This document shows positions 994 through 33,916 of a stretch of 34,075 bases of DNA, in pieces. Numbering within the stretch: position 1 is the first letter of the stretch; each line of letters opens with the position of its first letter. The position numbers and the translations under genes were made by a program. Source of the stretch: a virus; the IMG/VR virus record IMGVR_UViG_3300024518_000019, positions 1 to 34,075 of that record. One strand, given 5' to 3'. The notes under the pieces were generated by a model. It was not told the origin of the DNA and did no database searches. It was given only the letters and a program-made list of their open reading frames with translations.

Positions 994-2360
994 TAATACC
1001 TAAAACTAATGCAATAGGTGGTCCAGTTCATGAGGCTATCCCAATACTATCAGAAGCTAATAAGGTGCCACTAGCCAAGATTGTAAGAAGTGATTTCTCA
1101 AGAGAGCAGCCAGTACAGGTAACATTTGAGAGGTTACTAAAATATCACGACAGAACACCACAGATTCAGATAGCAGTATCATCTTATTCAGAATTAATTA
1201 CTGGCACAGAAATGACAGTAAATTCAGAGAATGAAGAAGCCAAGACATTAATTGAAGAATGGATTAGAAGCACAAACTTTTATGATAAATTTGAATCACT
1301 CGTTACAACCGTACTAATCACAGGTAATGGTATATTGGAAAAGTTAGATGAGAATGATACTCAAGATGTGTTAGAGGTAGACATGGCAACCATCATAGCC
1401 AAGAAAAGAGATATAGCAGGAGCATTAGAATATTATGAACATAGGACCCAGAACGGTCAGACAGATAAACTAGGTGAAGGTAAACTAGGTAAATTTATTG
1501 AATTCAACTTAACCAATTATTCCAGGCAACCCTGGGGTAAGTCATTATTCTATTCATTAGCCATACCAAGAACAGTAGGGAATCGTACAACTGCACCACT
1601 AATAGAAATCATGTGGGGTATTGAAGATGCTATGGGTGCAATCATACTAAACAATGCTTATCCTATCACAACTATCACCTATCCTGGTGCAAGTGATACA
1701 TATCTAGAGAAGGAAGCAACAAGATGGCAACGATACAAGCCAGGTGATAAGAGGGTACAGAAGATTAAACCAGAGATTGAATTCTTTGAGACATCAGGGA
1801 ATAGCAAGTACACAGATTACATCACCCATATAGAGAAAACATTTGAGTTGGGTACACAATTCCCACACGATATAATGACAGGTGATTTCACCAGCAGAGC
1901 TTCATCAGAGACAACAGATAATATTGTAATGAAAAGAGTCAGAGGTTATCAGAGATATTTAGCTAACAAATTAAAGAACGAACTATTTGATACCATACTA
2001 ATCCAGAACGGATTTGACCCAGATGAAGTAGACCTATTCATTGGATTCACTACACAAAATGTTGTAGAGTTAGAAGTTAATCAGATTAAGGATTTGGTAG
2101 ATTCAGGACTCATGACAAAGAGTGAAGGCAGGGAATGGTTCAGAACCAACACAGGTATGGAACTACCAGATGATGATGAGATACAGGCTAACCAGGATTT
2201 ACAATCAACTGTAGCTAAAAACGCAAAAGACATCAAAACAGAACACATCAACACCATGAACGAAATTGCCAACGTTAAAGCCAAGACAGTAAGGAAATGC
2301 AAGATGTGTAAGGAATCACAACACTCACTATGTACGAAGCGTGGCTGTCAATGCCAGTAG
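990..2360 (+). CDS. Portal protein
   Basis: 456 residues, typical portal length. It shows the usual layout: an N-terminal alpha/beta wing (a conserved-looking T-G-x-E segment near residue 70), a central part rich in short motifs such as NYSRQPWGKSLFY, a long stem/clip region and a helical C-terminal part with Q-N-G-F-x-P. A portal directly precedes decoration, protease and capsid genes, as expected. The start is TTG overlapping the upstream TGA (TTGA), with a GAAGG element upstream. Unusually, the last 20 residues carry six cysteines (C-x2-C-x7-C-x4-C-x-C plus an earlier Cys), a likely zinc knuckle, and this tail is overlapped by the next gene. The portal forms the DNA entry ring of the capsid. 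Confidence 0.85.
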   Translation: MIIPKTNAIGGPVHEAIPILSEANKVPLAKIVRSDFSREQPVQVTFERLLKYHDRTPQIQIAVSSYSELITGTEMTVNSENEEAKTLIEEWIRSTNFYDKFESLVTTVLITGNGILEKLDENDTQDVLEVDMATIIAKKRDIAGALEYYEHRTQNGQTDKLGEGKLGKFIEFNLTNYSRQPWGKSLFYSLAIPRTVGNRTTAPLIEIMWGIEDAMGAIILNNAYPITTITYPGASDTYLEKEATRWQRYKPGDKRVQKIKPEIEFFETSGNSKYTDYITHIEKTFELGTQFPHDIMTGDFTSRASSETTDNIVMKRVRGYQRYLANKLKNELFDTILIQNGFDPDEVDLFIGFTTQNVVELEVNQIKDLVDSGLMTKSEGREWFRTNTGMELPDDDEIQANQDLQSTVAKNAKDIKTEHINTMNEIANVKAKTVRKCKMCKESQHSLCTKRGCQCQ

Positions 2361-2581
2361 ACTTTGACGATTTGACCAAACGAATCCTAGACAACTTGGA
2401 CAACATCAATGACAAAGTTACGGACCTATGTGACAGAATGACAAAGGTAGAGGTCAATCTTGATAATCATTTTAATGAGATAGAGAGTAAACAAAATGCA
2501 AAGGATAAGAAATTCTACTTTGTAATTGCACTTATGGGAATAGGATTCACTTTATTTGAAATCATTAAGGAATTACTATGA
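2330..2581 (+). CDS. Coiled-coil plus C-terminal membrane segment (XhlA-like)
   Basis: 83 residues from ATG 2330, or 76 from ATG 2351, which would reduce the overlap with the portal gene from 31 to 10 nt. The N-terminal two thirds is a heptad-like acidic coiled coil (repeated L/V-x2-x3 spacing with Asn/Asp). It is followed by K-D-K-K and one membrane-spanning helix of about 18 residues near the C-terminus. This layout matches XhlA/haemolysin-type phage proteins associated with holins. A tail-less membrane anchor for assembly is the alternative. The next gene starts in an ATGA overlap with AAGGA upstream. Confidence 0.65.
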   Translation: MYEAWLSMPVDFDDLTKRILDNLDNINDKVTDLCDRMTKVEVNLDNHFNEIESKQNAKDKKFYFVIALMGIGFTLFEIIKELL

Positions 2582-3788: not shown

Positions 3789-3873
3789 TACTCTTTATTT
3801 CTAATTACATAATATAATCACGTTCTAGTTCGTAGGCATAAAGAATGTAGATACATCATGTGCCTATTATTTC

Positions 3874-3880
3874 TTTTTAT
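3874..3880 (+). promoter_or_regulatory. TATA box of protease/KTSC unit
   Basis: TTTTTAT ends 22 nt before the TTG at 3903, which argues that translation begins at that TTG rather than at ATG 3858. A second TTTAT-like element lies near 3793. Confidence 0.5.
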
Positions 3881-3902
3881 CATTTTAAATAGAAAAGTAA
3901 CA

Positions 3903-4499
3903 TTGAAACTAGAAGCTTATACTAAAGTGAATGAAACAGCCAAAATATCTGGTGTGGCATTAATTCCAAGAATTAGTAGAAATAACAATCTATACACTAA
4001 AGCCGAACTGGAGAGATTTGACGGTGTAGAGGTTCCATTGAACTGGGAGCATAATCCAGGACAGGTAATTGGTACAGCAACATTTCACTATAACTCAAGC
4101 TTAGAGACAGTATATTATGAAGGCGAGATAACCAATGAAGGTGCCGCTAGTCTTGCAAAGAACAAGACATTATTTACAAGTATAGAGGCTAATCCAACTG
4201 ATTTAAGAGAGATATGTAATGGACCAGGAGATTGTTTCTCTATGCCCTATGGACTTCAACCTGTAGGTCTGGCACTCACAGAAACACCTGGTGTGCCAGA
4301 AACAACAGTAAATGTGATGGAGAAATATATCGAGGAATGTAGCCATCATGAGTTAGAACATGAGGCAGCAGAAAAAGCAGGTATAGAACATACAGACTTT
4401 ATCAATGATTTCTCTAATTTCAAACAGAAAATCTATGACCACTTGGGTGTAGAAGAATGTAATGACTGTGGTAAGTTACACGAAAAAAAAACGAAGTAG
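3903..4499 (+). CDS. Prohead (capsid maturation) protease
   Basis: 198 residues from TTG 3903. ATG 3858 would add a hydrophobic stretch upstream of the TATA-defined start and is rejected. The N-terminal 120 residues match the herpes-assemblin/HK97-type prohead protease plan. A beta-rich core holds the candidate catalytic His in W-E-H-N (His50, followed by P-G-Q-V-I-G) and the candidate Ser in F-T-S-I-E (about Ser93). The gene directly precedes the major capsid protein. The C-terminal part is helical, acidic and His-rich, perhaps scaffolding, ending in C-N-D-C-G and a lysine-rich tail encoded by a nine-A run. It would trim capsid protein N-termini and be lost on maturation. The stop lies three codons after a candidate -1 slip site. 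Confidence 0.8.
   Translation: MKLEAYTKVNETAKISGVALIPRISRNNNLYTKAELERFDGVEVPLNWEHNPGQVIGTATFHYNSSLETVYYEGEITNEGAASLAKNKTLFTSIEANPTDLREICNGPGDCFSMPYGLQPVGLALTETPGVPETTVNVMEKYIEECSHHELEHEAAEKAGIEHTDFINDFSNFKQKIYDHLGVEECNDCGKLHEKKTK
4483..4491 (+). promoter_or_regulatory. A9 slippery site, candidate -1 frameshift
   Basis: Nine adenines read in frame as GAA AAA AAA ACG. A shift by -1 on the two AAA codons keeps perfect pairing and moves translation into the frame open from 4475 to 4876, avoiding the TAG at 4497-4499. Ribosomal slippage, polymerase slippage or a one-base assembly error in the homopolymer would all look like this. Confidence 0.55.
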
Positions 4500-4908: not shown

Positions 4909-6345
4909 ATGCCTTGCGATTGTAAAAAATCAGAAAACGAAGAATGTCCAGAAGGACAAGCTTTCGACGTCTCACAAGGAAAATGTGTAGCTAAAGAATC
5001 TGCATTTGGAGACCCAAAAACTACTGACGCACAACCTGACGTAGCTTCATCTGGAGCTGATGTTGGTGGAAGCCAAGAAGTTGAGGGAACACAATGCCCA
5101 GAAGGACACAGCCTAAACGCTGACTCTGGTGTATGTGAACCAAATGGCTCTGATAAAACAGGTGATATTGGTAAAACAAATACATCTATTTCAACAGAGA
5201 ACAAGAGACTAGCCGCCATTGAACAATCCATTAAGGCTCTTTCAGAAAAGAAACCATCTGCACAAGTTGGCTTAGATGACGGTCATAAGACCTGGAATCA
5301 AGTAGCTGAACAGATGGCACCATCTTTGAGAAAATTCGGTAAGTTTGAGTTTGATATCTCCTTAGAATCTCTAAGAAGCATTAACACCAAACAAACCCGA
5401 GATAGACAAGGTGCAGTAACTGAATCTTTCAGAGACTCACCACTACAACTCAAAGAAGCTGTTTCTATTTCAGGAACTCACGCAACACAGGACCTAGACA
5501 CTGATGTTGCTATTGTACCTGGTGGAATTTCTTTCAAACCTGTATTCCAGTTTGCAAAGACTAAACGCATTGAAGCAGGTATGGATAGAGCAAGATTCTT
5601 CAAGACTTCTATCCCAGCTAATGGTTCACAAACCGTTGGAACAACCCCTTCAGAAGCAGTACAAACTTTCACTAGCGTTGAAGTTACTCCAAGCACTATC
5701 ACAGGTGTTTACTTAGTAGGTGACTTTGATGAAATTGAAAACTCACCTTTTGACTTGCTACAAGCAATAGTCGAAGGAAGTGCAGCCTCATACGAAGATT
5801 TTGTTGCAACTGATATGTTAGATACCATTTCAGCAGAGGGAACTTTAACTCCAGGACTCTGGATTAGAGGAGATACAGGTGCAACCATTACATCATCTGA
5901 TGTAGCCTCAATGGCACTAGATGAAACAGGTATTGCAGTTGGTAGAGAATATCTTGAAAATCAAGGATATCTTAGAGGTGGAATCAAACCGATTTGCTTC
6001 TTAGACCCACAACAATGGAGAGAACTTATCACCAGCAGTAACGTAACATCATTGGCAACCAGAAGTGCTCCTGACATTTGGCTTAAAGCTGAATTAGAGC
6101 AATTTATGGGAGTTCAATTAATTGTTACCAACGCTGTCGAGCATAAAAACAACACCACAAACAATGCAGTAAACGCCTATATGTGTGTCCCAAAACATTC
6201 ATACGGTATCGGCATTAAACGTGATGTAACTGTTAAAATGCACGAAGTTGGTGAAGATAACCAAGTGAGAGTAAACACAACATGGAGAACTAAAGCAGGT
6301 GTCATTGATTCTACATCTATTGTAAGAATCAGTACAACCGATTAA
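4909..6345 (+). CDS. Major capsid protein, HK97 fold
   Basis: 478 residues, directly after the prohead protease and before a strong terminator. An N-terminal region of about 105 residues is hydrophilic, carries two copies of C-P-E-G-x7-G-x-C plus C-D-C, and then a coiled-coil stretch (E-N-K-R-L-A-A-I-E). This fits the delta/scaffold domain that the protease removes. The remainder looks like an HK97-type capsid core: a spine helix region around D-L-L-Q-A-I-V-E, a later K-P-I-C-F-L-D-P-Q-Q-W-R segment typical of the A domain, and a beta-strand C-terminus with K-R-D-V-T-V-K-M. The N-terminal Cys repeats are the odd feature; they may bind zinc or make disulfides in the procapsid. Confidence 0.85.
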   Translation: MPCDCKKSENEECPEGQAFDVSQGKCVAKESAFGDPKTTDAQPDVASSGADVGGSQEVEGTQCPEGHSLNADSGVCEPNGSDKTGDIGKTNTSISTENKRLAAIEQSIKALSEKKPSAQVGLDDGHKTWNQVAEQMAPSLRKFGKFEFDISLESLRSINTKQTRDRQGAVTESFRDSPLQLKEAVSISGTHATQDLDTDVAIVPGGISFKPVFQFAKTKRIEAGMDRARFFKTSIPANGSQTVGTTPSEAVQTFTSVEVTPSTITGVYLVGDFDEIENSPFDLLQAIVEGSAASYEDFVATDMLDTISAEGTLTPGLWIRGDTGATITSSDVASMALDETGIAVGREYLENQGYLRGGIKPICFLDPQQWRELITSSNVTSLATRSAPDIWLKAELEQFMGVQLIVTNAVEHKNNTTNNAVNAYMCVPKHSYGIGIKRDVTVKMHEVGEDNQVRVNTTWRTKAGVIDSTSIVRISTTD

Positions 6346-11140: not shown

Positions 11141-12015
11141 ATAAAAGATTAAAGACAATAGATGAGAAACTCAAAGATGAAGTATTACATTCACAAGGCA
11201 ATTATAATTTAGAAATTGTTAAAGAAAAATTCATAGTGCCAAAAGATTCAATGCAAATTATAATCTCTCATTGTATATACAATGAGGAGCAATTCTTTGA
11301 GGAAGTTCTATATGATGATTTAAAAATTAATGATTTAGATATAATTCATATCCTAGATGGAGCATGGAAGAATTATGATGGTGGGTATCAATCAAATGAC
11401 AACACTATAGAGATAATTAATAATTTCAGGGATAGAGCAGAGAAGATAGGAGTTAAGGTAATCTATGAAAAACACCCAGAAAATAAAATATGGGAATCAG
11501 AACCAATAAAGAGAAACTATCAAATTAAACGAATTAAAGAGTTATTTGGTGATAAACCATATTATAATATTGTAAAAGATGGTGATGAAATATTTCATCA
11601 TTTATCAGGTAGACAGAATTCTTGGTTAAAGAAAGATTTAGTAGAGTGGATAAAATATGAACAAAATATAGGTCTAATTAATTGTAATGCTCATTATTCT
11701 GATATTTCATTACTCACTCCAAGAATGTTTCCATCAACTAGAGATTTACATTATTACACAGGTAAAAGTATGATTATTCATAATGAGAATCATAATGTTA
11801 TATCTGACTATAACCCAGATGTAAGAAATTCTGGAGACCCTAAACTATGCTTTGTATATCAAAGTATGATGTTGATTAATAAATTTACTATACGAAATAA
11901 ACAGAGACAGATGGATAAAATACCCTTTGTAAAATATATTGAATCACAAAAAGGTAATGAACCATGTGCTCATAAACATACACTTCGCTCTGAAAGACTA
12001 ATTGAACACACTTGA
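11137..12015 (+). CDS. GT-A-type glycosyltransferase
   Basis: 292 residues. The N-terminal half has GT2-like landmarks: I-S-H-C-I-Y-N-E-E at 43-51, L-D-G-A-W at 73-77, K-R-N-Y-Q at 125-129, and K-D-G-D-E at 147-151 as the DXD-type metal/nucleotide-sugar site. The C-terminal half, rich in Asn, His and aromatic residues, would bind the acceptor. It ends with K-H-T-L-R-S-E-R-L-I, shared with the preceding zinc-ribbon protein. Lying among fibre genes, it may glycosylate virion proteins or host surface. Substrate unknown. Confidence 0.7.
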   Translation: MNKRLKTIDEKLKDEVLHSQGNYNLEIVKEKFIVPKDSMQIIISHCIYNEEQFFEEVLYDDLKINDLDIIHILDGAWKNYDGGYQSNDNTIEIINNFRDRAEKIGVKVIYEKHPENKIWESEPIKRNYQIKRIKELFGDKPYYNIVKDGDEIFHHLSGRQNSWLKKDLVEWIKYEQNIGLINCNAHYSDISLLTPRMFPSTRDLHYYTGKSMIIHNENHNVISDYNPDVRNSGDPKLCFVYQSMMLINKFTIRNKQRQMDKIPFVKYIESQKGNEPCAHKHTLRSERLIEHT

Positions 12016-13754
12016 GCTTTCAGTTTCTCCTGGAAGATGGCTCAGGGAATTATATATTAGAAGATAGTTCAGGTGGATATAGACAGGATATACCAACTAA
12101 GGTAGTTAATGATACCGTACAGATAACAGAATCTAAAGTCCCAGAGTTTGACCTATATCTAATTGAAGATGGAACAGGTGCCATAAAATTAGAGAGTGGC
12201 TTAGGATATTACGAACAAGATGTGCCTATCTATCATAGTGCAGATACAGTAGATTTATCTGAAACTGTCAATCGTGTAAGAGCATTAAAGGTAGAGATTA
12301 ATGACATAGTTGGACTAACTGAATCTAAGAATAGACTAAGAAGTCAGATAAGAAACCTTGCTGATACAGTTGGTATTACAGAGTCATTTAATAGACTTCG
12401 AAGTCAAATAAGGAATCTATCTGATACTGTTGGCTTAACTGAATCTGATAATCATAATATTGGACTATCACGAACTGCTAACGATACAGTTGGTATTACT
12501 GATACATTCAACAGGTTAAGGACCCAGGTTAGAAATGTATTAGATATAGTTGGAATAATTGGAACATCTAATAGAGATAGAACATTCTCAAAAACCGTTA
12601 ACACAGATACCATTGGCATATCAGATGTTACTAATAATACATCATCAGAGTTTGAATTCCTACTGGAAGATGGCTCAGGTAACTTATACCTAGAAGATGG
12701 AAGTGGAAACTATCTCCAAGACCTTCTACAAATAACAATCAATGAGACAGTTGGAGTTACAGAGAGTAAAGAGAGAGTAGGACAGCTATTCAAGAATATC
12801 GCTGACACAGTAGGAATTACGGAAGCCTCAGAGAAAATATATGTGTTAATCTATGTCATAAAGAATGTTGTAGATACTATCGGTATCACAGAAGCCTCAG
12901 AGAGAATCACACAGTTATTCAAGAATATTACATCAACAGTAGGAATAACAGAAGCAAGTGAGAAACTAAACATAATAATTAAAAACATATCAGATACAAT
13001 AGGACTAACCACGCTTGAGAATTATGCAACAGGATTCTTCAAAGTAGCAACACAGTTTATTGTAGCAGTAGAATCAACCATAAACAAACTACTTACAGAT
13101 GTCAATGTATATGCACTTGAAGATGGAACTGGCAGTTATCTCAATGAAGATGGATTAGGATTCTACCAGATAGACCAATTATTAATAGTAAAAATACAAA
13201 ATGCAATAGTAGACATAACAGAAGCTTCTCAGAAATACTTGGGACCTGTCAAGAATGTAGTAGATACTGTCCTACTTGTAGAGTCATTTAACAGATTACG
13301 AGCTCAGATTAGAAACTTTGCAGACACAGTAGGAATCACAGAGAGTAGTAATAGGTTAGGCTCACTCATCAGAAACTTTACAAGAACAGTTGGTATAACA
13401 GAATCTAATAACAGAGTATTTACCCTATTGAGAAATCTAACATCTACAGTTGGCATAACATCTGTAAACAATAAGATTAGAGGATTCAGTAAAGTAATAA
13501 ATGATACCATTCAACTTACAGACTCACTAAATATTGTTACTGGAATAGTCAAAGAGGCACTTGACACACTTGGAATCACAGAACTAATCAACAAGATTAG
13601 AGTGGTATTTACAGCAAATAATGTAGGTGTATTCACTTCAACTACTAACAAGAACGTCAATGATATGTTATCAATATCCTCAATAGATGTAGATAATCTA
13701 ATTGTTATTGATTCTCTTAATTCTGGGATTTTAAAAATAATAGATGATGATTAA
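12012..13754 (+). CDS. Repeat-built fibre (about 20 T-V-G-I-T-E repeats)
   Basis: 580 residues from TTG in a TTGA overlap. Two repeat families alternate. About 20 copies of a roughly 20-residue unit with core D-T-V-G-I-T-E-S and a tail such as N-R-L-R-S-Q-I-R-N run nearly end to end. Four copies of L-E-D-G-(S/T)-G repeats with a following Y-x-Q-D lie near residues 5, 47, 217 and 373. The LEDGSG motif is frequent in phage fibre or tail proteins. The protein is probably a long repetitive, perhaps solenoid or trimeric, fibre. Copy number is likely to vary between relatives, and short-read assembly may have altered it. Confidence 0.75.
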   Translation: MSFQFLLEDGSGNYILEDSSGGYRQDIPTKVVNDTVQITESKVPEFDLYLIEDGTGAIKLESGLGYYEQDVPIYHSADTVDLSETVNRVRALKVEINDIVGLTESKNRLRSQIRNLADTVGITESFNRLRSQIRNLSDTVGLTESDNHNIGLSRTANDTVGITDTFNRLRTQVRNVLDIVGIIGTSNRDRTFSKTVNTDTIGISDVTNNTSSEFEFLLEDGSGNLYLEDGSGNYLQDLLQITINETVGVTESKERVGQLFKNIADTVGITEASEKIYVLIYVIKNVVDTIGITEASERITQLFKNITSTVGITEASEKLNIIIKNISDTIGLTTLENYATGFFKVATQFIVAVESTINKLLTDVNVYALEDGTGSYLNEDGLGFYQIDQLLIVKIQNAIVDITEASQKYLGPVKNVVDTVLLVESFNRLRAQIRNFADTVGITESSNRLGSLIRNFTRTVGITESNNRVFTLLRNLTSTVGITSVNNKIRGFSKVINDTIQLTDSLNIVTGIVKEALDTLGITELINKIRVVFTANNVGVFTSTTNKNVNDMLSISSIDVDNLIVIDSLNSGILKIIDDD

Positions 13755-28305: not shown

Positions 28306-28327
28306 CTTCCTGTTTTTGTTATTTGTT

Positions 28328-29287
28328 GTGTCAGACGTTGATTTTCTATTAACACAATGGAGAACAACATTAATGGAATTTAAAAATGATTATGACAAGT
28401 GGGAAAAATATACGCTTGGTGATTATGTTGCAAAATGTGGTGAGATAATTAGGAATCAAATTGAGAATAATATGCTTGATATGAAAGTGTCAGGAATTAG
28501 TTCTTATCTATATTCACAACTAGATAAAGAAGGAATAGTAATTAGTGCTAGAACTATACAAAGAAATCTTCCAGACATTTACAAACAGAACTACTTAAAA
28601 AGCGACACCCTGTCGCAATTAGAAGAAGATGATTGGCAACCTATTGAGACTAATGACCCATCTTTAACCATAGAAAAGAATCAATTTAATGATATTAAAA
28701 TTAATGGTGTAGAACAGAGAGCCAAAGAAGTAAAGAAGAAACAGGAGACTCAGGCAGAGGAATCATTCAGACTAGAGCCAAAGGACACCAGGCAATTCAC
28801 ATATTTAACAGCCATGAGTAAATTAGCAAACAAATTTCACCTAACACTAGAGACACTCAAGAATAGATACAATGAATCAGATGAAATTCAAGGTATAATA
28901 GATAAAGAGTTAGGAGATGTTGAAGGTAAGCTGGAACAGTACGCTAAGGACTGGGCTAGTATAGAGAATAGTAAGGGTATGATTGATTTAAGGAGAGATT
29001 TTGGTGAATATGAAAAAGTTGTAGCCTGTTTCAATATTGAAGTAGGTGAAACTATTGCCAGAGTGGCACAACTCATGGACTATTCAGAGAAATATGGTAG
29101 TATAGGCATATTAAGAGAGCCAAAAGTAAGAGAATTCTTTGAAAAAGAGAGTACATATCCACTATATCTAAGAAGCTGTCCAAAATGTCTCACAGATATA
29201 GCACAAATCATGAACCATAATATCAATTTATACAGGGAATGTAAGGACCTAACTATAAACATACCAAGAATCAAGTACAATCAATAG
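28328..29287 (+). CDS. 319-aa putative HTH/replication or regulatory protein
   Basis: GTG start by TATA spacing. The N-terminal 85 residues look like a helix-turn-helix region (I-S-S-Y-L-Y-S-Q-L, then I-S-A-R-T-I-Q-R-N-L). A polar linker rich in Lys/Glu follows. The C-terminal half is helical with R-Q-F-T-Y-L-T-A-M-S-K-L and ends with C-P-K-C and a later Cys. It could be an initiator, a transcription regulator or a packaging factor. It stands at the point where transcription diverges. No family recognised. Confidence 0.6.
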   Translation: MSDVDFLLTQWRTTLMEFKNDYDKWEKYTLGDYVAKCGEIIRNQIENNMLDMKVSGISSYLYSQLDKEGIVISARTIQRNLPDIYKQNYLKSDTLSQLEEDDWQPIETNDPSLTIEKNQFNDIKINGVEQRAKEVKKKQETQAEESFRLEPKDTRQFTYLTAMSKLANKFHLTLETLKNRYNESDEIQGIIDKELGDVEGKLEQYAKDWASIENSKGMIDLRRDFGEYEKVVACFNIEVGETIARVAQLMDYSEKYGSIGILREPKVREFFEKESTYPLYLRSCPKCLTDIAQIMNHNINLYRECKDLTINIPRIKYNQ

Positions 29288-29294
29288 TTATATA
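29288..29294 (+). promoter_or_regulatory. TATA box before two-TM protein
   Basis: TTATATA, beginning right after the upstream stop and 22 nt before ATG 29317. Confidence 0.6.
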
Positions 29295-29316
29295 GTAGCA
29301 TTTTCACAAATGAATT

Positions 29317-29493
29317 ATGTCTGACGGAAATCTTAGATACTATGGTCTTGGACTCTATGCAGGTCTTGTAGCATTATGGACAGGTTTAGATAAAGTAGCC
29401 CTAGATGACAGTATTGCTATTGCCCTTTTGGCACCTATAGCCGCTGTTATTGGTGCTGATTATTTCAAGCACAAAAACGATAATAAAGCCTAA
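29317..29493 (+). CDS. 58-aa two-TM protein, holin candidate
   Basis: Two apolar segments (Y-G-L-G-L-Y-A-G-L-V-A-L-W, about 9-21, and I-A-I-A-L-L-A-P-I-A-A-V-I-G, about 33-47) are separated by a short charged turn (L-D-K-V-A-L-D-D). The tail is charged (F-K-H-K-N-D-N-K). This is class II holin size and topology. Own promoter and a T-rich end. Its neighbour is a matrixin protease, so the pair may form a cell-exit cassette. Confidence 0.6.
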   Translation: MSDGNLRYYGLGLYAGLVALWTGLDKVALDDSIAIALLAPIAAVIGADYFKHKNDNKA

Positions 29494-29499
29494 TCAATC

Positions 29500-29525
29500 T
29501 TTTTAGGTTCACTTTTTTATTTTTT
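29500..29525 (+). terminator. T-rich terminator
   Basis: T5, then T6 and T6 separated by single other bases, immediately after the holin-like stop. It may be leaky, since the protease gene begins 5 nt beyond. Confidence 0.5.
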
Positions 29526-29529
29526 ATTG

Positions 29530-30225
29530 ATGAAACCCATCTGTATTGCATACTCTAGCATATTGAAACAGGTGGAATTTCTTGAGCAAGAAGAATGGCA
29601 ACACAAATGGACCAAAGACACACTATGGTATGACGTGGTATGGCATGATTCATTAAAATTAATTACAAAGAAGGAGTTAAGACGAGCAGTAAATTTATCC
29701 ATGACAACTTGGGATTTAGAAGTGCCAGTGAAATATAGACCTGTATGGATGAGTAAGGAATATCATGAACCAGACATAGTGATACAATTCAAACGTAGAG
29801 AGAATGATGATTATCTAAAAGAAAGACCAAGTGTACTAGCATACGCATATCTACCTGGACAAGGAAGTTATTCAGGTAAGGTAGTATTCTGTGCAGATTA
29901 CATCTGGGACCTAAAAGGTAAGGGTATAAGAGGAGATAAAGCAATAGAAAAAGGTCTAGTTGAGAACGCCAGTCCAGACAACATATTGAAAACTTACAAC
30001 ATTCACCATGTACTTATCCATGAGTTAGGTCATACGTTAGGACTCAGACATGACACAGATGGAAATAGTGTTGATGTGATGGACCCATATTACAAGGGAA
30101 CAACCTTAGACCTATCAGAGAGGGACATATACAGAATCAGATTGAAATATGGAGTAAGAGTATTCAAACATTGGAATCATTATAGTATACTAAAGAGGTG
30201 GCTAAAACGCAGGATAAGACGTTAA
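29530..30225 (+). CDS. Matrixin-type zinc metalloprotease
   Basis: 231 residues from ATG 29530 (TTG 29527 also in frame). It contains H-E-L-G-H-T-L-G-L-R-H at about 164-174, the full H-E-x2-H-x2-G-x2-H zinc site, and the Met-turn V-M-D-P at about 183-186. An upstream L-A-Y-A-Y-L-P-G-Q-G segment is typical of the matrixin (M10A) strand before the structural metal site. No signal peptide or pro-domain is obvious. Archaea lack peptidoglycan, and many have protein S-layers, so an S-layer-cutting role in release or entry is a reasonable inference. Confidence 0.85.
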   Translation: MKPICIAYSSILKQVEFLEQEEWQHKWTKDTLWYDVVWHDSLKLITKKELRRAVNLSMTTWDLEVPVKYRPVWMSKEYHEPDIVIQFKRRENDDYLKERPSVLAYAYLPGQGSYSGKVVFCADYIWDLKGKGIRGDKAIEKGLVENASPDNILKTYNIHHVLIHELGHTLGLRHDTDGNSVDVMDPYYKGTTLDLSERDIYRIRLKYGVRVFKHWNHYSILKRWLKRRIRR

Positions 30226-30426: not shown

Positions 30427-31383
30427 ATGACAAAAACAATCATAGCAATTTTAGCTGCCTTATTTATAACAGGTGCTGGAATTGCATACGCAGAAGAATC
30501 GACAATACAGGTTCCATTTGATTATCATGGACTTTCATGTTGGTTAGAATCTGAAACCACCTATCAATGCACATGGCAGGGAGAAATCGAGCCAATGACC
30601 ATTGAAGAATTGGAATCATTCAAAGATTCTATCAGTACAGAAGTCTATGAGGAAGAATTAGCCAGGCTAACTGCTCCAATAGTAGTGGAAGTTACTCCAG
30701 AACTAACTAAAGATGAAAAGACAATACTAAAACTTGAATCAAAGTTAGTAAAGGGAACAATGATAACACAAGACGCAGTATTATTACAGATGTTAAGAAC
30801 TCTTGACGAGTGCCAACAGGGATTAGGTAATTCCTCAGCAATACAAGAGGAGAGAACCTTTGTAATATCTGAATGGAATCATTGGGAAGTCACAAATGTT
30901 CAGGTAGTAGGACAGTTAGGTGAACTTGTAATGGCAATAGAGGAGTGTAAAGCACAGCATACACTTGAAAACCAAACCTTAACTGTTATGTACAAACACT
31001 TTGAAGATGCAAACAGAGCAGGTAATTTTAACCACTTGGAAGCATTGGAAGGTGTAAGTGCCATACCATACTCACAGTACACAAAGTCTGACAGAACAGT
31101 AGACATTGGTGTAATATGTAATAGTCACGCATACCCACAACAATACAAAACACTCATGGGTTGTGAACCAATAAAGTATGATGGATTTACATATCCAGAG
31201 GGTAACGGTTTAATCAGTTACTACTCACCAATACTAGAGGAGTACACATTCTTCATGCAAGACTATGGCAACAAAATAGCTACACCACATGACAAACAAG
31301 TACAAGCTAATATTGCAGAACCAATAGCAAGAGAACTGATAAAGAGCAACCTATTCTATCAAAACAAAATCAACAGGGAATAA
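30427..31383 (+). CDS. Secreted Cys-containing protein
   Basis: 318 residues. A textbook signal peptide (T-K-T-I-I-A-I-L-A-A-L-F-I, then A-Y-A before E-E-S, cleavage near residue 22) sends the protein out of the cell. The mature part starts I-Q-V-P-F-D-Y-H-G-L with Cys pairs (S-C-W, Q-C-T-W), has a long helical middle, and a C-terminal part with V-I-C-N-S-H-A-Y and M-G-C-E-P. From memory the N-terminus resembles secreted proteins of Nitrosopumilus-type archaea, hinting at a host-derived gene. It could coat the host surface, block superinfection or join the virion. Confidence 0.65.
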   Translation: MTKTIIAILAALFITGAGIAYAEESTIQVPFDYHGLSCWLESETTYQCTWQGEIEPMTIEELESFKDSISTEVYEEELARLTAPIVVEVTPELTKDEKTILKLESKLVKGTMITQDAVLLQMLRTLDECQQGLGNSSAIQEERTFVISEWNHWEVTNVQVVGQLGELVMAIEECKAQHTLENQTLTVMYKHFEDANRAGNFNHLEALEGVSAIPYSQYTKSDRTVDIGVICNSHAYPQQYKTLMGCEPIKYDGFTYPEGNGLISYYSPILEEYTFFMQDYGNKIATPHDKQVQANIAEPIARELIKSNLFYQNKINRE

Positions 31384-31780: not shown

Positions 31781-32041
31781 TTGAGAAATATGGTAAAGAA
31801 TCATTGGACTAATTTGAATAATGATGGAAGAAGATTAGAGAGAATCATTAAACTATGTGAGACCAACATAGTAAAAGAAATGAATGATAACAATCATGTT
31901 ATGGTATTATCATATATAGACAGATTGATTAAGGCAACTCATCAAAAGTCTAATGTAGTCGATTTGGTATTGGGAATATCTCATTTAAGAAAAGTAGCAG
32001 AGAAAAAACTCGAACAGCCAAAGGTGTATCTTGGCAACTGA
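31781..32041 (+). CDS. Small terminase subunit candidate
   Basis: 86 residues from TTG, about 20 nt after a TTATTA element (ATG 31790 alternative). Helical, with an N-terminal basic segment and a long middle helix (V-L-S-Y-I-D-R-L-I-K-A). Position directly upstream of TerL, with an 11-nt overlap, and size fit TerS, although no clear helix-turn-helix is visible. Confidence 0.5.
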   Translation: MRNMVKNHWTNLNNDGRRLERIIKLCETNIVKEMNDNNHVMVLSYIDRLIKATHQKSNVVDLVLGISHLRKVAEKKLEQPKVYLGN

Positions 32042-33464
32042 GGAGATAGCATTTCATGACAATGTAAGAAAATTAAGACATCTCCTACCAGCAGAAGAAG
32101 ATGATATATCTATTAATTTCCCACAGTATAGAGGGTTATCATTTAAAGAGTTCTGGGAAGCACTACCAAACAAATTAGAATACTTTGACTATGAGGAAGA
32201 ACTGACAGATATTCTGGCTAATAATAAGAAACTATGGATTAAGAAGGCAACAGGCTTAGGCATTACCGAGTGGACCATTAGATGGATAGCCTGGAACTGT
32301 CTCAAAGATGATAAGTGGAGAGATACACAGGTAGATGTATCAGCAGTAATCATCACAGGTGCCAACCAAGACTTAACAAATAAGGTAGTTGGTAGAATGA
32401 AATCATTATTTAATTCAGAATTTAAGACCAAAGAATCAGTAGTGATATTAAACGGTTGCAGAGTAGAGGCATTTCCTACTAACCACTTGAGTCCTGCAAG
32501 AGGGTTGAATCCAAAGGTAGTCATGTTAGATGAAGCCGATTTCTTCCCAAACAGGTATCAAGATGAAGCTAGGACCGTAGCAGAGAGATACATTCCAAAG
32601 ACTAACCCACATATATTGTTAATCAGTACACCTAATCTTCCTGGTGGACTCTTTGAGAGAATGGAAGATGAGACAGATAATGGCTATGTAATGAAGCAAA
32701 TGGATTATACCATAGGAGTAAACAAAGTATTCAGACCAGAGGATATAGAGACAGCAAAGAAATCACCATCATTTGAAAGAGAATACAACTTAAAGTATGG
32801 TTTTGGCACAGGAGATGTGTTTGAGAACCTTGAAAATATCATCACAGAATATGACCTACAAGTTATCGGTGGCAGAGGTGGCTGTTATGGAGACCCAGCA
32901 TTTGGCTCATCAAACTTTGGTGTACTAGGTGGAGAGATAAGAGATGGACTCCTCTACATTACCGAAGCCAATGAATACCCAAGACCAAGTCCATCTGCTA
33001 TGCTTGATGTTATGGAGGATATGGCACACAGATACAACGATAACTGCAAAATCGACTCGGCTCACCCAGGATTTATTAGAGACCTTGAAACGAGAGGAAT
33101 ACCAGCTCTACCGATTAACTTTGGATTACAAATTAGGGACCACGAATCTGCGAACATTCAAAGCCTAAGAAGCAAGATGGCTATCAATGCCGCCCAGATG
33201 GTAAAGAATGGTAAGGTAAGGATTCACCCTAGTCATACAAAACTAATCTCACAGTTAAGAGCCGCACAATTTGACATCAAAGGTGGCATAGATAAATCAG
33301 AACTCAACTTTGATATTGGAGACTGCTTCATCATGTGTTGCTGGGACCTAAAGGAGTTTGACTATGGACACTATGATGTAATGAATAACAAGCTGGTATA
33401 TGGAGACGATACAGAAAAACATAAATCAAAGAGTGTAGTTATGAATACTGAATCCTATGAATGA
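32031..33464 (+). CDS. terL: Large terminase subunit
   Basis: 477 residues from TTG. ATPase: K-K-A-T-G-L-G-I-T at 71-79 is a deviant Walker A with the lysine at the start, as in lambda gpA; Walker B V-V-M-L-D-E-A-D at 163-170; coupling motif L-I-S-T-P. Nuclease: an RNase H-like domain with G-D-P-A-F-G (Asp near 288), I-D-S-A-H (Asp near 342) and F-D-I-G-D (Asp near 430). It cuts and pumps virus DNA through the portal. The terminal repeat could reflect headful packaging or a circular replicative form. Confidence 0.9.
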   Translation: MATEEIAFHDNVRKLRHLLPAEEDDISINFPQYRGLSFKEFWEALPNKLEYFDYEEELTDILANNKKLWIKKATGLGITEWTIRWIAWNCLKDDKWRDTQVDVSAVIITGANQDLTNKVVGRMKSLFNSEFKTKESVVILNGCRVEAFPTNHLSPARGLNPKVVMLDEADFFPNRYQDEARTVAERYIPKTNPHILLISTPNLPGGLFERMEDETDNGYVMKQMDYTIGVNKVFRPEDIETAKKSPSFEREYNLKYGFGTGDVFENLENIITEYDLQVIGGRGGCYGDPAFGSSNFGVLGGEIRDGLLYITEANEYPRPSPSAMLDVMEDMAHRYNDNCKIDSAHPGFIRDLETRGIPALPINFGLQIRDHESANIQSLRSKMAINAAQMVKNGKVRIHPSHTKLISQLRAAQFDIKGGIDKSELNFDIGDCFIMCCWDLKEFDYGHYDVMNNKLVYGDDTEKHKSKSVVMNTESYE

Positions 33465-33720
33465 TGAAGATAGAGTGCAACAGTTTATCATTAAAGCAAC
33501 AGGCAAGACAATAGGAAGAAATAGTAAGATGTCATTATCCATATTATTTGCAAATACTTATTCAGAGTATGTTAAAGCTATAAACGATATTAACAATGGT
33601 TACACATTATACAAGGAACTAGAGGACAAGATTGATAGGATTAAACTCATAATAAAAGACCTGGATAACATACCAACTTCTGTAATCAATGAGATAATAG
33701 ATGAGAATACAGAAGGATAA
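33457..33720 (+). CDS. 87-aa helical protein, unknown
   Basis: ATG overlapping the TerL stop by 8 nt. All-helical appearance with a long heptad-like C-terminal helix (L-E-D-K-I-D-R-I-K-L-I-I-K-D-L). It could be a packaging accessory or internal head protein. Overlaps the next gene by 20 nt. Confidence 0.6.
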   Translation: MNDEDRVQQFIIKATGKTIGRNSKMSLSILFANTYSEYVKAINDINNGYTLYKELEDKIDRIKLIIKDLDNIPTSVINEIIDENTEG

Positions 33721-33916
33721 AGTAGCACATTTCATAATAGGATTCTCTCTATCAATGCTTGGTATCTTTTGGCTGCCACTTGTATTATTAGGATTTATCT
33801 TTGGATTTGGTAAAGAGTTTTATGACTTGTCAGGTAGAGGAACACCAGAGGTTAATGATGTGATAGCAACTCTAATAGGTGCTGTGATAGCTATGGGTAT
33901 TGTGGTGTTGGTATGA
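33701..33916 (+). CDS. 71-aa membrane protein, holin/VanZ-like
   Basis: Begins M-R-I-Q-K-D-K-V-A-H-F-I-I-G-F. There are two or three apolar segments (about 9-20, 22-37 and 53-71) with a loop F-G-K-E-F-Y-D and G-R-G-T-P-E-V-N-D. The D-K-x-x-H-F at the start and K-E-x-Y-D in the loop belong to a widespread small phage/bacterial membrane family of unknown role, sometimes annotated as holin or VanZ-like. ATGA overlap with the next gene. Confidence 0.6.
   Translation: MRIQKDKVAHFIIGFSLSMLGIFWLPLVLLGFIFGFGKEFYDLSGRGTPEVNDVIATLIGAVIAMGIVVLV

Follow-up and report, generated by a model that had tools for sequence, protein, structure and literature searches.

A small membrane protein and a leaderless matrixin as a candidate exit cassette of a probable Nitrososphaeria tailed virus

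The locus and its probable host

How does a tailed virus leave an archaeal cell that is enclosed by a protein S-layer? Holins and S-layer proteases were proposed for archaeal viruses in a 2015 review, according to which neither an enzyme that degrades the S-layer nor, in isolated archaeal viruses, a gene for a holin was then known (PMC4456609). The question is raised anew by two adjacent genes in a virus record, which an earlier note had read from the DNA letters alone as a possible exit or entry cassette. Throughout, the window denotes the whole stretch of DNA that was analysed, with a length of 34,075 bp and a GC content of 34.9%. The two genes would provide a concrete candidate for the exit of tailed viruses from S-layer archaea, conserved in a marine lineage, by which the 2015 idea becomes directly testable. 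Nitrososphaeria are among the commonest archaea in the sea, and such viruses would bear on the mortality of the main marine ammonia oxidisers.

A direct terminal repeat of 127 bp was found, so that the window is probably a complete genome. TerL (32031-33464) shares 45.5% identity over 81% with the Nitrososphaera provirus Pro-Nvie1, its sole match among 50,697 phage records, and the closest counterparts of the MCM helicase are found in archaeal tailed viruses. A matrixin of the window family, about 43% identical to the window protein, is encoded on a contig of a Nitrosopumilus MAG (JAOTZM010000019.1; L016), and a scan of 400 genomes of the Nitrosopumilus order yielded further close members in G173, G185, G107 and G337, with virus-like neighbours in the first three. 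The TerL match and the Nitrosopumilus copy bear out the earlier assignment to an archaeal tailed virus, here of Nitrososphaeria, the host probably belonging to the Nitrosopumilaceae. Nitrosopumilus cells are covered by a protein S-layer. In 23 ORFs of the window that were searched against Pfam, PHROGs and/or NCBIfam, no peptidoglycan hydrolase was detected; to this extent the earlier statement that the genome holds none anywhere stands. As a side observation on the cellular contig, the region L016:3256-4886 shows the family matrixin 120 bp behind an ESCRT-III gene of the Snf7/CdvB type (E=1.2e-14 for Pfam Snf7); this matrixin carries a C-terminal extension, and host genes lie around. The features of the locus are:

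29288..29295, plus strand: TATA-like box TTATATAG, candidate promoter of a leaderless transcript, 22-29 bp before the ATG of the membrane-protein gene
29317..29493, plus strand: holin-like membrane protein of 58 aa with an ATG start
29494..29529, plus strand: intergenic T-rich tract of 36 bp (CTTTTTAGG...CTTTTTTATTTTTTATT), possible archaeal terminator or attenuator
29530..30225, plus strand: leaderless matrixin (M10-type zinc metalloprotease) of 231 aa, proposed lysin
29542..29544, plus strand: codon of Cys5, candidate cysteine-switch-like zinc ligand
30019..30051, plus strand: zinc-binding motif HELGHTLGLRH (His164, Glu165, His168, His174)
30079..30081, plus strand: Met184, methionine of the Met-turn
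30172..30222, plus strand: basic C-terminal helix (predicted for residues 215-230), about residues 215-231, containing KRWLKRRIRR

The matrixin and the small membrane protein

The ORF call of the protease begins at a TTG (29527), while the ATG at 29530, which is backed by the aligned relatives, gives the protein of 231 aa. Residues 27-209, in the numbering of the ORF call, match Pfam Peptidase_M10 (PF00413) with E=7.4e-22 and 78.4 bits against a cut-off of 24. As the earlier note had read, a 58-aa ORF stands directly before a protease with a complete zinc site and Met-turn: both ORFs, HELGHTLGLRH and Met184 are present, and the pattern HExGHxxGLxH as well as the Met-turn methionine are invariant in 27/27 homologues. 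MMP-20, MMP-7 and karilysin are the best solved relatives among sequence matches in the PDB. A template-free AF2 model based on 18 homologues (pLDDT 78.7, pTM 0.79) adopts the MMP catalytic-domain fold, and its best Foldseek match is the catalytic domain of karilysin (2xs3; E=2.5e-11, TMt 0.83), whereas viral structure matches are mostly MMPs of insect DNA viruses, together with one M10 protein of an uncultured Caudovirales. The gene is under purifying selection with dN/dS of 0.07-0.14, values for both genes of the pair being mostly 0.07-0.15. A tblastn search with two family members against the 50,697 phage records gave no match, and a high-GC matrixin match lacking the N-terminal features of the family (L086) was set aside.

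With karilysin of Tannerella forsythia and other matrixins the window protein shares the HExxHxxGxxH motif, the Met-turn, the predicted fold and a short N-terminal extension. It differs from them in several respects, since no signal peptide was seen by inspection in any of the 27 aligned N-termini, the prodomain motif PRCGVPD is absent, and positions occupied by the structural-zinc histidines of MMPs are not histidine in the window protein (LAHAF is LAYAY, and DAHFD is VVFCAD). Further differences are a lone invariant cysteine near the start and the basic C-terminal helix; net charge over the last 25 residues is +9 in the window, and the remaining members on viral contigs range from +3 to +9. 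Cys5 is the only invariant cysteine of the 27-member family, retained in all members down to 26% identity, which makes a conserved disulphide within the matrixin unlikely. It is located 21 residues before Lys26, the start of the catalytic domain, and 22 before Trp27. In secreted MMPs the switch cysteine precedes the corresponding Lys-Trp by about 16-17 residues. The invariance of Cys5 and its spacing to Lys26 make a minimal, cysteine-switch-like latency a good hypothesis. Seven related loci (L069, L071, L072, L076, L078, L079 and L085) additionally code for a matrixin-like protein of 266-310 aa with a hydrophobic segment at its N-terminus and the motif HEFGHxxGLGH, close to the leaderless one and often on the opposite strand, so that these viruses carry two metalloproteases. 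The presence of this signal-peptide-bearing form suggests that such viruses can use the secretion route when needed.

An enzyme without a signal peptide could also act within the cytoplasm, either in capsid maturation or by destroying a host or defence protein, and the cellular family member does lie beside a Snf7/CdvB-like gene in the Nitrosopumilus MAG. However, matrixins typically act extracellularly, and a role as prohead protease is disfavoured by a separate, albeit weak, candidate (3858-4499; PHROG head maturation protease, E=0.012) in front of the ORF at 4909-6345, which is taken for the major capsid protein. Since an intracellular function would also leave the link to membrane proteins unexplained, we regard it as improbable.

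The 58-aa protein has a short N-terminus, a putative hydrophobic hairpin with an acidic loop (DKVALDD) and a basic C-terminus (KHKNDNKA). Using a simple hydropathy rule for membrane segments, residues of about 27-45 lie above the threshold, while the first segment (about 8-24) is weaker and borderline; in the homologue of L015 both segments pass. The two-TM topology proposed earlier, as in a class II holin, is a possible one for the window protein, given its borderline first segment. Homologues of 54-61 aa are encoded directly upstream of the matrixin in relatives, and dN/dS of 0.07-0.26 indicates purifying selection. No family match, holin families included, was obtained in Pfam, PHROGs or NCBIfam; the likeness to holins lies in the short length, at least one TM segment and the position beside a lysin-like gene.

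Candidate expression signals flank the membrane-protein gene on both sides. The TATA-like box is similarly placed in most relatives, and in the window such a box precedes only 4 of the 48 genes that encode 60 aa or more. Of 16 loci compared, most have a similar T-tract ahead of the matrixin start; L069 and L078 lack it. These two putative elements suggest that expression levels may differ between the two genes.

Conservation of the pair and exchange of its partners

The last scan of viral sequences was baited with TerL and not with the protease, so that loci were not preselected for the protease. It returned 34 loci, 20 of which extend far enough upstream, and a matrixin is present in 20/20; as several contigs are near-identical or already known, these represent roughly 11 lineages. 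The genes between the matrixin and TerL vary freely among the relatives, and on that side retention of the matrixin is therefore not mere block synteny. Directly upstream of the matrixin, a short ORF of 53-58 aa was found in all 16 TerL-related loci that cover the region. Fifteen are recognisable homologues of the 58-aa protein; the copy in L113 is truncated by the contig end, and the upstream ORF of L108 encodes a different hydrophobic protein of 53 aa that stays below the hydropathy threshold for a TM segment. A holin-like gene is displaced from the matrixin by 1-3 genes in L014, L055 and L088, and no TM gene lies upstream of the matrixin in L060 or in the cellular copy (L016). Pro-Nvie1 encodes a pair of TM proteins (an XhlA-like protein and a 2-TM protein), though no HExxH protease, indicating that not every thaumarchaeal tailed element uses a matrixin.

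Both partners have been exchanged. In L111 and L113, TerL (72 and 65%) and the membrane protein (65 and 68%) are close to those of the window, yet identity to the window matrixin drops to 31%; their matrixin falls into another subfamily (support 100/100), together with two copies in genome G337. Conversely, L009, L013, L069 and L071-L085 have a matrixin that is 48-53% identical to that of the window, located behind a protein of about 87 aa with 2-3 TM segments. Homology between this protein and the 58-aa protein was rejected (hhalign probability of 3.8%); three of eight members of the ~87-aa family match the LydA holin family (PF16083) with E=0.0074, below the Pfam cut-off. In L059 and L061 the matrixin gene is preceded, at distances of 36 and 48 bp, by genes for yet other TM proteins. 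Judged by these comparisons, the pair persists through exchange of either partner. The upstream hydrophobic ORF in 16/16 loci and the partner swaps support the earlier proposal that a holin-like protein and the matrixin form a pair, tying the two together as a module.

Within the clade of the window, the block consisting of the gene at 28316-29287, the TM gene and the matrixin gene is conserved, which could suggest that the pairing is a by-product of gene order devoid of any functional link. This explanation is hardly credible, because the order of TM gene and matrixin recurs in other viruses at another genomic position and with an unrelated TM protein (L009, L013, L069-L085), and because small TM genes are otherwise rare, amounting to 3/57 genes in the window and to 3/60, 11/80 and 6/56 in three relatives. 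The swaps bear equally on whether the small protein is a membrane anchor, an adaptor or an inhibitor of the protease, the pair then remodelling the surface of a living host (superinfection exclusion or cell-surface change). The 58-aa family does lack a holin-family match, and a TATA-like box of its own together with the T-tract before the protease gene would allow separate expression. On the other hand, replacement by an unrelated, weakly LydA-like protein fits a generic holin better than a specific anchor, and the surface would be out of reach for a leaderless enzyme in the absence of a hole, which renders such a role quite unlikely.

Release or entry, and comparison with known systems

Since the matrixin has no signal peptide, it would need a hole in the membrane to reach the cell surface, which fits the membrane protein encoded upstream. 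We therefore consider it reasonably probable that the pair is an exit cassette of the holin-lysin style, with the matrixin replacing the peptidoglycan hydrolase and the S-layer as presumed target. The matrixin would build up in the cytoplasm, kept latent by Cys5 bound to the zinc of the active site, as a cysteine switch of minimal form. At a late stage of infection the membrane protein would assemble into holes, through which the matrixin could exit, to be activated once the Cys5 segment is displaced or cut. The freed enzyme would then burst the cell by cleaving the S-layer or the stalks that carry it, and the basic C-terminal helix may aid binding to the membrane or envelope.

The absence of a signal peptide would likewise be expected for a virion- or tail-associated protease that cuts the S-layer locally during genome delivery, with the membrane protein as a mere neighbour, and the matrixin gene indeed adjoins tail-fibre-like genes in L009, L014 and L054. 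By contrast, no fusion of a matrixin with a tail protein was seen in the 27 members examined, and in the window clade the tail genes are remote from the matrixin, which has replication-side genes on one side and the terminase on the other. When either partner is swapped, what stays with the matrixin is a membrane protein and not a tail protein. A function in entry is accordingly unlikely. Exit is favoured by three traits of the enzyme, namely its lack of a leader, its stand-alone form and its firm pairing with a membrane protein. Of the exit-or-entry cassette proposed by the earlier note, the linkage of the genes as a module is upheld, while the tail-fibre-like neighbours in some relatives keep entry as a rival to release.

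The arrangement resembles the holin-endolysin cassettes of phages (class II holin and leaderless endolysin, or XhlA-XhlB layouts), in which a small membrane protein also directly precedes a leaderless stand-alone hydrolase and one holin family can take the place of another, unrelated one. It differs in its hydrolase, a matrixin zinc metalloprotease, which presumably attacks a protein S-layer instead of peptidoglycan. By analogy, the pair is filed as a holin-lysin in its presumed manner of working, and not as a member of the peptidoglycan-endolysin families. With PeiP and PeiW of Methanothermobacter viruses it would share the use of a peptidase as lysin by an archaeal tailed virus, but these pseudomurein endoisopeptidases are cysteine peptidases with a different target, pseudomurein, and a fold unrelated to that of matrixins. 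For the viruses encoding PeiP and PeiW no holin is known (PMC4456609). The virus-associated pyramids of Sulfolobales viruses likewise provide an exit for archaeal viruses through the S-layer; however, they consist of a single self-assembling membrane protein (PVAP) without a protease, and exclude the S-layer instead of cutting it (PMC4456609). The insect DNA-virus MMPs (granuloviruses, ascoviruses and entomopoxviruses) are viral matrixins as well and the best structural matches among viral proteins, but they have eukaryotic hosts, another gene setting and an identity of 13-24%.

More tentatively, and with slightly less than an even chance, Nitrososphaeria tailed viruses may lyse their hosts by a holin and a cytoplasmic matrixin zymogen kept inactive by a single N-terminal cysteine, the S-layer being destroyed on release of the enzyme. 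If true, this would constitute a proteolytic counterpart of phage endolysins, and the first gene set for S-layer archaea beyond the pyramid mechanism. Of 129 archaeal dsDNA viruses in a 2025 survey, no more than 10.9% had lytic proteins detected; in the passages covered here, Pei and PVAP are listed for viruses of archaea and no matrixin lysin appears (PMC12596118). Searches of the open-access literature for matrixins and archaeal viruses, and for S-layers or metalloproteases and Nitrosopumilus viruses, found no earlier description of the pair, although priority is not certain.

Several other genes of the window were noted. One of them encodes a possible accessory protein, whose role is uncertain:

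2330..2581, plus strand: coiled-coil protein of 83 aa with a C-terminal TM segment, XhlA-like in layout only

Its membership in the XhlA family was rejected (Pfam XhlA, E=0.07, under the cut-off), and in L009, L013 and L069 its counterparts precede the holin-like gene. After TerL, a 2-TM protein of 71 aa (33701-33916) is VanZ-like (Pfam VanZ, E=2.8e-6, just under the cut-off; weakly YfiM-like), and since in L093 and L121 its homologues follow closely behind the matrixin, it is an alternative candidate for the holin. The gene at 30427-31383 encodes a protein of 318 aa that has a hydrophobic, signal-like segment at its N-terminus and matches no family in Pfam, PHROGs or NCBIfam; it is present in L002-L005 and missing from L006 and L104-L108, and thus not a core part of the cassette. 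The N-terminus of the putative major capsid protein has a weak match to chitin-binding peritrophin-A (E=3.4e-4, under the cut-off), and a protein of 580 aa (12012-13754) contains many repeats of the TVGITESxNRLR type, interspersed with repeated LLEDGSGNYxLEDGSG blocks.
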